Made by a program: the position numbers and the translations under genes
Assembly: GCA_016930365.1 (NCBI GenBank)
Contig: JAFGGY010000032.1
Coordinates: forward strand, 1 to 46,437
DNA length: 46,437 bases
DNA from: Prolixibacteraceae bacterium
GTDB lineage: Bacteria; Bacteroidota; Bacteroidia; Bacteroidales; Prolixibacteraceae
Direction: 5' to 3'
Part shown: positions 1,594-9,479 of the stretch, in pieces
How positions within the stretch are numbered: the first letter of the stretch is position 1
How the letters are laid out: every line of letters starts with the position of its first letter
The notes under the pieces: model-generated
Database searches by the model: none
The model's input: the letters and a program-made list of their open reading frames with translations, nothing else
Told to the model about the DNA's origin: nothing

Positions 1594-1625
1594 AAAAAAG
1601 CCCGATTTTTTCGGGCTTTTTTTTA
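1592..1625. terminator. Bidirectional intrinsic terminator between convergent genes
   Basis: AAAAAAAAGCCCGATTTTTTCGGGCTTTTTTTT between convergent stops. Confidence 0.9.
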
Positions 1626-2720
1626 TTCTTCCAGGCTGTCAATGTATTCGGTTTGTTGCCTTACCGAATCTTCGTGAATCAATTGGAAGAGTATTTTTAT
1701 AAATGTGTCGTTTAGTTGAAGTTTGCCTGCTGTTTCGAGCCGGTTGTTCATCATTTTTGTCCATCGGTCGATTTGAAGTGCCATTACGTTGTTGTTTTTC
1801 TTGTATTCGGCAATTTGATTAACAATCTCGCTGCGTGCCGATAAGAGTTCCATTAATTCAGTGTCGAGTGTGTCGATTCGGTTTCGCAATTGTTCCAGTT
1901 TGTTACCAAATTCGACATCGTCGGCGGTTTGTTTTCGTATCACCAGTTTATCAATCATTTTAAATAAATCGGCTGGAGTGAATTGCTGTGCGGCATCGCT
2001 AAGCGCACACGATGGATCGATGTGCGACTCAACCATTAGCCCGTCAAACCCCATGTCGAATGCTTTTTGAGAGATTTCTCCAACAAGTTCGCGTTTGCCG
2101 GCAATGTGGCTGGGGTCGCATATTATGGGGAGGTTGGGCATGCTGCGGCGTAGCTCAATGTAGGTTTTCCATCCCGGGTAGTTTCTGTATTTGGTTTCCT
2201 GAAACGGCGAAAAACCCCGGTGAATGCCAACCAGTTTTTTCAGTCCAACGGTGTTTAATCTTTCTATAGCACCCATCCATAACGATAAATCGGGGTTCAT
2301 GGGATTTTTAACCATTACTACTTTGTCTGAACCTTTCAGTACATCGGCAATTTCCTGAACCACGAATGGGCTGGTGGTTGAGCGAGCGCCAATCCATAAT
2401 ACATCAACATCGGCCTTGAGACATTCTTCGGCGTGTTGTGCGTTGGCTACTTCGGTGCCAACCATCAGACCGGTTTCGTCTTTAATTTTTTTCATCCATT
2501 CGAGGCCAATGCTCCCAATACCTTCGAACGATCCGGGGCGAGTTCGTGGTTTCCATACTCCACCGCGTATTACGTGTACACGTTTGTCTTTGGCCAACTC
2601 GCGGGCTGTACTTAATGCCTGTTTTTCGGTTTCGAGGCTGCAAGGGCCTGCAATAAGCAGCGGGTATGGCGTTTCGGGCATCCAGCTACTCAGCGGTTTA
2701 ATGTCTAAATCCAGTTTCAT
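1623..2720 (-). CDS. Bifunctional 3-deoxy-7-phosphoheptulonate synthase / chorismate mutase type II
   Basis: ORF 1623..2825; start at MKLDLDIKPLSSW. LIAGPCSLE, GTEVANAQHAE, CDPSHIAGKRELV motifs, then C-terminal chorismate mutase helices (LRNRIDTLDTELMELLSARSEIVNQIAEYK). Confidence 0.93.
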   Translation of the reverse strand: MKLDLDIKPLSSWMPETPYPLLIAGPCSLETEKQALSTARELAKDKRVHVIRGGVWKPRTRPGSFEGIGSIGLEWMKKIKDETGLMVGTEVANAQHAEECLKADVDVLWIGARSTTSPFVVQEIADVLKGSDKVVMVKNPMNPDLSLWMGAIERLNTVGLKKLVGIHRGFSPFQETKYRNYPGWKTYIELRRSMPNLPIICDPSHIAGKRELVGEISQKAFDMGFDGLMVESHIDPSCALSDAAQQFTPADLFKMIDKLVIRKQTADDVEFGNKLEQLRNRIDTLDTELMELLSARSEIVNQIAEYKKNNNVMALQIDRWTKMMNNRLETAGKLQLNDTFIKILFQLIHEDSVRQQTEYIDSLEE

Positions 2721-2763: not shown

Positions 2764-3660
2764 TTATTTTGTGTAGAGTTTAGTGGTTGTCGATTTTTTT
2801 CGAACAAGATTTTTGGTTTCTCCATTTAGAATATCTCGAAGTCGATTTGCATTTTTCATCAGTTCGTACATGTGTTTTTCGTCTTTAGATAAAAGGCTTT
2901 CTTTAAAATCTTCGAGATGTTTAATGTAAACATTCAGCGATTCAACCACATAGTTCTGGTTTTGTTTGAAAATGGGTCCCCACATTTCGGGCGAACTTTT
3001 TGCTAAGCGTGCGGTTGACTGGAAACCACCACTGGCCAGGTCGAAAATGATTTGTCGGTCGCTTTCGGCCAATACTGCATTGGCCAGAGCAAAAGCAGTG
3101 ATGTGTGGCAGGTGCGATACTTGTGCGGTGGTGTGATCTTGTTCGTCGGAACTCATGTAAGCTATATCCATACCAATGGTGTGGAAAAGTTTTTCGATGA
3201 GCGCAAGGTGTTGTGGCCTGCTTCTTTCCTGGTCGCAAATTATACATATTTTTTCATTGAATAGTCCTTCGATGGCAGCTTCAGGTCCAGAGTTTTCGGT
3301 ACCCGACATGGGGTGAGCAGCTACATAATTACCGCGCAATGGATGGTTTTTTACACTTTCGCTGATTAGTTTTTTGGTTGAACCTACATCGGTAATTGTG
3401 GCCGATGGGCTTATTTGATCAAGCAGAGTAGGTAGAAGCTGTTGGATTTTGTCAACCGGTATGGCTAAAATAACAATATCGGCCTGTTTTAAGGCTTCGT
3501 TTAGCGGCTGTGTTTCGTCAACCAATCCAATTTCGATGGCTTTTTTGCAGTGTGCCGGGTTACTGTCAACCCCGGTAATATGGGTGGCAAAACCGGTTTT
3601 GCGAATATCTTTTGCCATCGAACCACCTATTAAACCTAAACCTATTATGGTAACTCTCAT
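2764..3660 (-). CDS. tyrA: Prephenate dehydrogenase
   Basis: Start MRVTIIGLGLIGGSMAKDIRKTGF (Rossmann GLGLIGGS); AAHPMSGTENSGPEAA; HLPHITAFALANAV. The ORF-track start (3753) runs into the leader region. Confidence 0.92.
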   Translation of the reverse strand: MRVTIIGLGLIGGSMAKDIRKTGFATHITGVDSNPAHCKKAIEIGLVDETQPLNEALKQADIVILAIPVDKIQQLLPTLLDQISPSATITDVGSTKKLISESVKNHPLRGNYVAAHPMSGTENSGPEAAIEGLFNEKICIICDQERSRPQHLALIEKLFHTIGMDIAYMSSDEQDHTTAQVSHLPHITAFALANAVLAESDRQIIFDLASGGFQSTARLAKSSPEMWGPIFKQNQNYVVESLNVYIKHLEDFKESLLSKDEKHMYELMKNANRLRDILNGETKNLVRKKSTTTKLYTK

Positions 3661-3692: not shown

Positions 3693-3723
3693 AAAAAAAA
3701 AGGGCTCCGTTTCCCGGAACCCT
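3693..3723 (-). terminator. Leader (attenuator) terminator upstream of tyrA
   Basis: Minus-strand RNA AGGGUUCCG-GGAAA-CGGAGCCCU followed by U-run: 9-bp stem with one U-G wobble, continuous only on the minus strand. Confidence 0.85.
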
Positions 3724-3757
3724 ATAAATTGTATCTTTCAGTTTAAGCAACACAAAT

Positions 3758-3826
3758 CTACACGATTCCGTAATTGGTACCGAAATAAAAATAAAAGTAG
3801 AAATATGTGCTAAAAGCTAGTTTCAT
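3758..3826 (-). CDS. Aromatic leader peptide MKLAFSTYFYFYFYFGTNYGIV
   Basis: Codon-by-codon read of minus strand: ATG AAA CTA GCT TTT AGC ACA TAT TTC TAC TTT TAT TTT TAT TTC GGT ACC AAT TAC GGA ATC GTG TAG. 10 of 22 residues are Phe/Tyr, with 8 consecutive codons. Confidence 0.87.
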   Translation of the reverse strand: MKLAFSTYFYFYFYFGTNYGIV

Positions 3827-3860
3827 CGTAAATAATTATTCATAATTGAATTTGATTTTG

Positions 3861-3890
3861 CAAATATAGGTTTTTATCCTGTTAAAACAA
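3861..3890 (-). promoter_or_regulatory. Bacteroidetes-type promoter for leader-tyrA operon
   Basis: Minus strand TTG (3890-3888), 19-nt spacer, TATATTTG (3868-3861), matching TTG-N19-21-TAnnTTTG; about 30 nt before the leader ATG. Confidence 0.7.
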
Positions 3891-4157: not shown

Positions 4158-4607
4158 ATGACATTAGCACGTAGAACAAACAACACATTTCCATCGTTTC
4201 CTTCCATTTTCGATCGTTTTTTCAACGAAGGTTTGATGGATTGGAACAACCTCAATTTTTCGAACACCGATACCACAATCCCGGCTGTTAACGTAAAGGA
4301 AGATGATGATAAGTATAAGATTGAGGTGGCAGTACCCGGAATGAAAAAGGAAGATTTCAATGTGAAACTTGAGAACAACATGCTGACCATTTCGTCGGAG
4401 CATAAGGATGAGAAAGACGAATCGAAAGGTGGATATACTCGAAAAGAGTTTAGTTATCAATCGTTCCAGCGTAGTTTTTCATTGCCCGATGGGCATGTGT
4501 TAGCCGATAAGATATCGGCAAAATACAACGATGGAATCTTACACATTGAGCTTCCAAAGCGCGATGAGGTAAAACCTCAGCCGGCAAAAACAATTAAGAT
4601 ATCGTAA
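4158..4607 (+). CDS. Small heat shock protein (Hsp20/alpha-crystallin)
   Basis: PAVNVKEDDDKYKIEVAVPGMKKEDFNVKLENNMLTISSE ... GILHIELPK; RBS-like AGGAGG at 4145. Confidence 0.94.
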   Translation: MTLARRTNNTFPSFPSIFDRFFNEGLMDWNNLNFSNTDTTIPAVNVKEDDDKYKIEVAVPGMKKEDFNVKLENNMLTISSEHKDEKDESKGGYTRKEFSYQSFQRSFSLPDGHVLADKISAKYNDGILHIELPKRDEVKPQPAKTIKIS

Positions 4608-8042: not shown

Positions 8043-9479
8043 TTACTTTCCTTTGCCCGAAAAACAATTAATAAGAGTGTAAATCAGTATTTTAAAATCG
8101 AGGTAGAGCGAAATGTTTTTCAGGTAAATAATGTCGTAAGGTGCTCTTTCGACCATTTCTTCAATATTCGAAGCATATCCGTATTTTACTTGACCCCATG
8201 AAGTTATACCCGGGCGAATACGTTGAAGCTGAATGTAGTGTGGTGCTTTTTTTCTGATTTCTTCGATGTAGTGTTCTCGTTCAGGGCGGGGACCAACCAG
8301 CGACATATCGCCTTTTATTACATTGTAAAACTGAGGAATTTCGTCGATGTGAGTGCGGCGCATAAATTGACCGAATTTTGTTATTCGCGGATCGTTGGTT
8401 GATGATAGTGCTGGTCCGTTAGGTTCGGCATTAACCACCATACTCCTGAATTTGTAAATAGTGAATTCTTTGCCGTATTTCCCAACACGTTTTTGTTTGT
8501 AAATAATTGGCCCTTTTGATGACGAGCGTATTCCTATATATACGAGTGGGGAAAAAGGTATGAAAATAAGAAGTGCCAGAGCCGAGAAGGTTACATCAAT
8601 AAGCCGTTTCATATTTTCTTGCCATGCCGGCATAATTCCATTCGAAATTTTCACCAAAGGGCTGGAGTAAACGGTGCTCATTTTTACGCTTCCCGAGAGA
8701 ATATCGTACATATCGGGAATAGCTTTAACGGTTATATTCCGATAATCGAGTGCCGACAAAATATGTTGAATTTTATGGTGTTCTGAAGTTTCAATAGCCA
8801 GAATAATTTCTTCAATATTTTCTTTATCAATAATTTGGGGAATGTCGTTTACGTTGCCCAGAAGTTGTATGTGTTTTTCGAGCAGAAGGTCGTTACGTCC
8901 GTTTACTTTTACAAAGCCAACAATCCGGTTTCCTGTTGTGCGCTGGTTCGACGACATTTCGTTGTATAGGTTTACTGCTTGTTCGTTGCTTCCAACAATT
9001 AGAGTATTAAACCCAATTTTTCGTTTCTGAATACGGTGGATGGTTTGGCTCGTTAATATTAGCCGTGGGATAAGGGTTAATACGAAATGTAAGCCAAATA
9101 GAGTAAAGTATAAATTATAATAGTGTTTGTATGTTGCAATTGAGTCGTCGAGAAGTAGGGTGAAAAAGATAATGGTTACTCCAATAATTGTGGTAAAGGC
9201 AGTTTGTCCAAAATCGATAAGCCTCGAACGGCGATATATGTTACGATAAAACCCCGAAACATAATAAAACAAAACCCAAAATGCAGGAATAACAAACAGA
9301 GCTATCCAGAAATTCGAATCGATCTTTATGATACCCGTTTGCTGAAAGATTTCATTTTCGATGTAAACTTTACGAAAAATATAAAATAAACTCCATGCAA
9401 TGGCAGCTGCCAAAACATCGAAAGTCATATATCTTGCTACCTGTTTCCGGTTATTCATGCATGTATGAGTGTTGGTCAA
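8043..9479 (-). CDS. Exopolysaccharide polyprenyl-phosphate glycosyl-1-phosphate transferase (WcaJ/WbaP-like)
   Basis: N-terminal TM helices and CoA-binding-like fold, then KRLIDVTFSALALLIFIP, YKQKRVGKYGKEFTIYKFRSM, GDMSLVGPRPERE. Confidence 0.92.
   Translation of the reverse strand: MTNTHTCMNNRKQVARYMTFDVLAAAIAWSLFYIFRKVYIENEIFQQTGIIKIDSNFWIALFVIPAFWVLFYYVSGFYRNIYRRSRLIDFGQTAFTTIIGVTIIFFTLLLDDSIATYKHYYNLYFTLFGLHFVLTLIPRLILTSQTIHRIQKRKIGFNTLIVGSNEQAVNLYNEMSSNQRTTGNRIVGFVKVNGRNDLLLEKHIQLLGNVNDIPQIIDKENIEEIILAIETSEHHKIQHILSALDYRNITVKAIPDMYDILSGSVKMSTVYSSPLVKISNGIMPAWQENMKRLIDVTFSALALLIFIPFSPLVYIGIRSSSKGPIIYKQKRVGKYGKEFTIYKFRSMVVNAEPNGPALSSTNDPRITKFGQFMRRTHIDEIPQFYNVIKGDMSLVGPRPEREHYIEEIRKKAPHYIQLQRIRPGITSWGQVKYGYASNIEEMVERAPYDIIYLKNISLYLDFKILIYTLINCFSGKGK

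Follow-up and report, generated by a model that had tools for sequence, protein, structure and literature searches.

Genes and features of the tyrA locus

The window, by which we mean the whole stretch of 46,437 nucleotides analysed here (contig JAFGGY010000032.1 of a Prolixibacteraceae bacterium), carries on its minus strand the gene tyrA, followed by a gene for a DAHP synthase fused to a chorismate mutase. Their Pfam domains (Table 1) bear out the identities given to both genes in an earlier note on this DNA. Upstream of tyrA lie a promoter, a short leader ORF and an intrinsic terminator, and the neighbouring hsp20 gene beyond them is divergent; hence, the terminator can act only on transcripts heading into tyrA.

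The promoter with its 19-nt spacer, the 22-codon ORF with eight alternating Tyr and Phe codons and the 9-bp hairpin with its U-run had been described in the earlier note, and all are present as described. Its distances were each one base too long: it gave 35 nt from the leader stop to the terminator stem and 33 nt from the end of the U-run to the tyrA ATG (at 3660), and we measured 34 and 32 nt; its coordinates hold within one base. The antiterminator arm, the long-range stem and the conservation throughout the family, all reported below, go beyond that note.

Table 1. Features of the tyrA leader region and flanking genes in the window
Feature	Positions	Strand	Remarks
Promoter	3861-3890	-	TTG (3890-3888), 19-nt spacer, TATATTTG (3868-3861); Bacteroidota TAnnTTTG type
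Leader ORF MKLAFSTYFYFYFYFGTNYGIV*, unannotated, 22 codons	3758-3826	-	Sequence; homologous leaders in the family
Putative sensor codons YFYFYFYF	3782-3805	-	Eight Tyr/Phe codons, alternating
Region 1, 5' half of long-range stem	3804-3811	-	Directly before the sensor codons; covariation
Region 2, antiterminator 5' arm CGGAATC	3764-3770	-	Overlaps leader codons GIV; covariation
Region 1', 3' half of long-range stem	3746-3753	-	Directly after the leader stop; covariation
Conserved AAAGATAC element	3731-3738	-	Between leader stop and terminator; A2 consensus
Region 3, GGTTCCG	3715-3721	-	Common to antiterminator (with region 2) and terminator (with region 4)
Intrinsic terminator	3693-3723	-	9-bp hairpin (3723-3701) and U-run to 3693
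tyrA, prephenate dehydrogenase, 298 aa; predicted first regulated gene	2764-3660	-	Pfam PDH_N 4.2e-40, PDH_C 3.4e-22
DAHP synthase/chorismate mutase fusion; predicted second regulated gene	1623-2720	-	Pfam DAHP_synth_1 2e-37, CM_2 1.9e-18
hsp20, divergent upstream neighbour	4158-4607	+	Pfam scan

In 109 of 116 relatives the -7 motif of the promoter, TAnnTTTG, occurs in the 80 nt that precede the leader ATG, versus 6.4 expected from shuffling. The family to which the window belongs has tyrA in first place, with pheA located elsewhere, and a DAHP synthase motif is found downstream of tyrA in 63 of the 65 family loci with enough sequence.

An aromatic leader peptide conserved in Prolixibacteraceae

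The genome belongs to Prolixibacteraceae (Bacteroidales), its nearest named matches being Draconibacterium, Sunxiuqinia, Prolixibacter, Mangrovibacterium, Mariniphaga and others. We collected 153 tyrA upstream regions from this family, 120 of which are distinct, and counted as leaders those ORFs that start with ATG and have at least five aromatic codons in eight. Such ORFs are present in 118 of the 120 distinct loci, and the leaders of the remaining two were recovered by hand. The earlier note had held that its proposal would fail if the Y/F run were missing from close relatives; an aromatic leader is present in 120 of 120 distinct loci, and the element is thus conserved across the whole family. 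The two apparent exceptions were thus cleared up: L143 is truncated by a contig end and still has the run, and the leader of L163, MKPFFYRSSYYYVPYSGAA, is divergent.

The other two frames of the leaders are not rich in aromatic residues. The distance from the end of the run to region 2 is exactly 12 nt in 85 of 118 leaders, a gap that fits the reach of a stalled ribosome.

Conservation of a peptide of this kind could also reflect a ribosome-arrest leader, the nascent peptide stalling the ribosome on sensing free phenylalanine or tyrosine, as the TnaC arrest peptide senses tryptophan, with the switch working from that stall. The leader codes for a short, hydrophobic peptide of conserved length, and the RNA switch would look identical. 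However, arrest peptides need fixed residues, and in the aligned leaders F and Y swap at all eight run positions, with synonymous codon changes (for example, mixes of 26 F and 13 Y, 19 F and 27 Y, or 32 Y and 15 F), and the C-terminal residues vary. In addition, a biosynthetic operon should respond to a lack of the amino acid, not to its excess. The interchange of F and Y at every position of the run favours codon sensing, through tRNA charging, over an arrest peptide, which we consider highly improbable.

Two mutually exclusive RNA stems covary

The terminator hairpin of the window has a predicted free energy of -16.2 kcal/mol (z = -4.0), and a terminator lies 22 to 43 nt after the leader stop in all 118 measurable relatives. 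The earlier note had proposed aligning the leader across relatives in search of covarying stems. In our alignment of 48 diverged sequences (A2; <80% identity), both the terminator and an antiterminator covary. The standard pairs of the terminator, between regions 3 and 4, make up 95.2% of the cells, and 8 of its 10 pairs have changed on both sides. The antiterminator, between regions 2 and 3 (columns 63-69 with 122-128), is paired in 95.8%, 5 of its 7 pairs having changed on both sides. Each of the two stems exceeds all 500 shuffles, both in cells paired and in covariation score, and stands well above the slid controls. The duplex of regions 2 and 3 in the window amounts to -11.0 kcal/mol. Region 3 is common to both stems, which are therefore mutually exclusive, and their covariation across 48 diverged sequences demonstrates the antiterminator/terminator switch comparatively.

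We relied on pair-by-pair counts of changes on both sides because exchanging the partners of regions 2 and 3 among genomes is a weak test, the cores being alike (mean of -11.3 for cognate versus -9.9 for swapped partners). In L045, L185 and L193 the leader ends ahead of region 2, and downstream of its stop there is still a region-2-like stretch pairing with region 3, which indicates that region 2 is conserved for its RNA and not for the peptide.

A third, long-range stem joins regions 1 and 1' (columns 16-23 with 81-88). It is paired in 83.4% of A2, with changes on both sides at 6 of 8 pairs, and L005 provides a clear compensated version (UUGGUAAACACA / UGUGUACCAAU). In the window this stem is only partly kept, a shifted version of it appearing in the minimum-free-energy fold, and drawn together with the antiterminator it makes a pseudoknot; for both reasons we are unsure of its role.

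The conserved (A)AAGATAY element between the leader stop and the terminator has no supported pairing and is possibly a polymerase pause site or an unwound spacer. Its letters, AAAGATAC, recur in this genome's trp leader, ahead of the trp terminator. Region 1' (GUGUUGCU) and AAAGATAC were also considered as the arms of a spacer hairpin inside the antiterminator; this was rejected, as their 71.7% pairing is below the shuffled mean and covariation gives the hairpin no support.

Such strong conservation of the RNA, together with a third covarying stem and the AAAGATAC element, could suggest that the ORF is incidental and that a protein or a small molecule binds the leader RNA and sets the choice between the two alternative stems. 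This is even less probable than peptide arrest, as the leaders keep their reading frame, codon class and position while synonymous sites vary, and the codon class fits the pathway here as it does in the trp (WWW) and thr-type leaders described below. Moreover, an Rfam scan of the window at the gathering threshold returned tRNA only, with no match to a riboswitch, a T-box or Bacteroid-trp. Finally, although Phe and Tyr codons are A+T-rich, the idea of a chance aromatic ORF in A+T-rich sequence beside an ordinary terminator is hardly credible and already refuted by the conservation in every distinct locus and the covariation, given that none of 23,600 shuffled leader ORFs has an aromatic run of at least seven, versus 90 of 118 real leaders, and that the terminator cannot serve the divergent hsp20.

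A ribosome-mediated attenuator is the favoured reading

The locus has the general hallmarks of an attenuator, namely a run of codons for the amino acids of the pathway, an intrinsic terminator before the first gene and an antiterminator that shares an arm with the terminator. We conclude, with a probability of roughly 0.93, that transcription of the tyrA-DAHP synthase/chorismate mutase operon is under ribosome-mediated attenuation, with the element sensing the charging of tRNA-Phe and tRNA-Tyr. The observation itself is real, and its reading as an attenuator, a function that we infer, is strongly supported by comparison. The Phe/Tyr attenuation proposed in the earlier note thus survives the conservation test, and an antiterminator is now added to the terminator that it had named. 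The switch very likely turns both genes on only when phenylalanine or tyrosine is scarce.

In the proposed mechanism, when both tRNA-Phe and tRNA-Tyr are charged, the ribosome would reach the leader stop and cover region 2; region 3 would then pair with region 4, and the terminator so formed would end transcription before tyrA. A shortage of Phe-tRNA or Tyr-tRNA would make the ribosome stall within YFYFYFYF, where it would cover region 1 and free region 2, which lies some 12 nt beyond the run. Region 2 would pair with region 3 as soon as the latter is transcribed, no terminator would form, and RNA polymerase would enter tyrA. If the leader were not translated, both the long-range stem and the terminator would form, so that the default state would be off. 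The stalling at uncharged codons, the kinetic control and the actual read-through are steps that we infer.

Folding predictions for the leaders are in line with this scheme. With the ribosome placed at the last aromatic codon and the polymerase just past region 3, the antiterminator is predicted in 118 of 118 leaders, and with the ribosome at the stop codon or absent, the terminator in 118 of 118. When the whole hairpin is included in an equilibrium fold with the ribosome stalled, the terminator is still favoured in 113 of 118. Antitermination would therefore have to be kinetic, i.e. to depend on the order of folding. Kinetic antitermination is accepted for other attenuators.

Comparison with known systems

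Leader-peptide attenuation is a well-known type of switch, known mainly from Proteobacteria and Actinobacteria. A comparison of the leader with Rfam at E-values up to 5 gave no match to Bacteroid-trp (RF01692) or to a T-box. Phe_leader (RF01859), the proteobacterial pheA leader, gave a full-length but weak match of 26.4 bits (E = 0.019), far below its gathering threshold of 55 bits. It shares with our element a Phe-rich peptide and a terminator before an aromatic biosynthesis gene and differs from it in codon mix, sequence and genes.

The closest layout, in the same phylum, is that of the Bacteroid-trp RNA, which is listed in PMC2864571; the element of the window would work in a similar way. 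Both have an ORF with codons for the pathway amino acids, a AAAGATAC-like element and a terminator before a biosynthetic operon, and the RF01692 consensus also includes a stem whose two halves lie directly before the codons and directly after the stop. They differ in the codons, which are Phe and Tyr (plus one Trp in most relatives) here and WWW there, and in the regulated genes, tyrA and DAHP synthase here as opposed to trp genes. The window's genome has a Bacteroid-trp RNA of its own (53.0 bits; L275, near positions 8908-9037 of G000:C141), which lies before trpE and contains the leader MNTFTVNTWWWQNLNFDIGS with WWW. The idea that relatives with no Bacteroid-trp match are without a trp leader was dropped, as their trp operons have Trp-rich leaders that the Rfam model missed.

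Attenuation has been proposed for this branch in the phylum before. An attenuator was predicted in 2005 before the pheA-hisHb-aroAIbeta-aroQ-tyrA operon of B. thetaiotaomicron (PMC1173090, Table 7, Merino's predictions). Pathway and phylum are those of our element and the operon contains the same genes, whereas that table gives neither a leader peptide nor codons, and in the window's family tyrA comes first and pheA lies elsewhere. For Flavobacterium psychrophilum and relatives, PMC9723704 describes a structured 5' element ahead of pheA and notes that amino-acid operons with no Rfam hits show strong signs of leader-peptide attenuation. Pathway and phylum again agree and gene and gene order differ, and we saw no Phe/Tyr leader sequence for the pheA element in the passages considered. 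Leader-like short ORFs in long 5' UTRs of B. thetaiotaomicron have also been reported (PMC7366714). The Phe/Tyr switch of the window appears, as far as open-licence papers go, to be uncatalogued, and it is not in Rfam at threshold. Given the Bacteroid-trp layout and the earlier predicted attenuators, we regard it as a well-supported new case of a kind already known.

Related leaders in and beyond the family

We built a covariance model of the element, called R1, and ran it on the window's genome, on a sample of Bacteroidales and on the wider class. It has one good match in the window's genome; with respect to a second copy there, its other matches are weak (E of at least 0.025), and the three best of them are without an aromatic leader. 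Of 25 R1 loci read from Bacteroidales outside the family, 24 have an aromatic leader, and they come from 18 other families. The first downstream gene was scanned for 20 out-of-family loci and codes for a prephenate dehydratase in 17, an aminotransferase in two and a DAHP synthase in one. One order-level match (L224) has no aromatic leader and was discarded. Matches in the wider class mostly have aromatic leaders as well, and most adjoin prephenate dehydratase-like genes.

R1 also found, in L308 and L311 (near position 1501), a Thr/Ile-rich leader ORF, MIFNTSIITTIIITTG, upstream of an aspartokinase-like gene. These two leaders suggest that the scaffold may be common to leaders for different amino acids.

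Several loci have leaders in tandem. In three pheA operons from other Bacteroidales families (L228, L229 and L232), two Phe/Tyr leader ORFs follow one another, and in L228 and L229 each has a terminator of its own. Within Prolixibacteraceae, the trp operons of L284, L285, L286, L287, L288, L289 and L293 appear to have two Trp leader ORFs in a row, such as MKKLNTIWLPWWGLLT followed by MLKTNNWWWRFIFS. In L286 (G017, 1121-1520) a hairpin and a T-run come after each of the two, as expected of tandem trp attenuators. Separately, L252 (G019, 1348-1398), also from Prolixibacteraceae, has, unlike the window's genome, a separate pheA with an aromatic leader, MNAAYRFWFFFFTD.

A single Trp codon in most leaders of the family

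The longest run contains exactly one Trp codon in 81 of 118 leaders and two in none of the 118; in 31 of 48 aligned leaders it occupies the fourth position of the run. The window's leader has no Trp codon, nor do, as a group, the eight members of its clade in the TyrA tree. Mapped on this tree (68 proteins), the presence of Trp requires six changes, at least four of them forced by supported branches. The Phe/Tyr sensor of the earlier note may thus be refined, most runs in the family having a Trp codon and the window's clade having what may be a Phe/Tyr-only version.

The single Trp codon in most runs of the family suggests that in its ancestral form the tyrA leader may respond to each of the three aromatic amino acids. 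The aromatic pathway as a whole begins with DAHP synthase. We give about even odds to the view that the ancestral element of Prolixibacteraceae was a three-amino-acid sensor. With a single Trp codon, fixed in position, besides its Phe and Tyr codons, it would report a shortage of any aromatic aminoacyl-tRNA to the DAHP synthase operon, next to a separate WWW leader for trp. On this view, the Trp codon has undergone about six losses or regains, one of them in the window's clade.

Significance

The switch, defined well enough to be tested base by base, is, for Bacteroidota, a case of attenuation in the Phe/Tyr branch with strong comparative support, and the element covers many leader genes across Bacteroidales. 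If the three-amino-acid sensor did exist, close relatives would differ in whether a shortage of tryptophan switches on the common pathway. The coming and going of the Trp codon in the run offers a natural test of how a single leader combines the signals of several amino acids.
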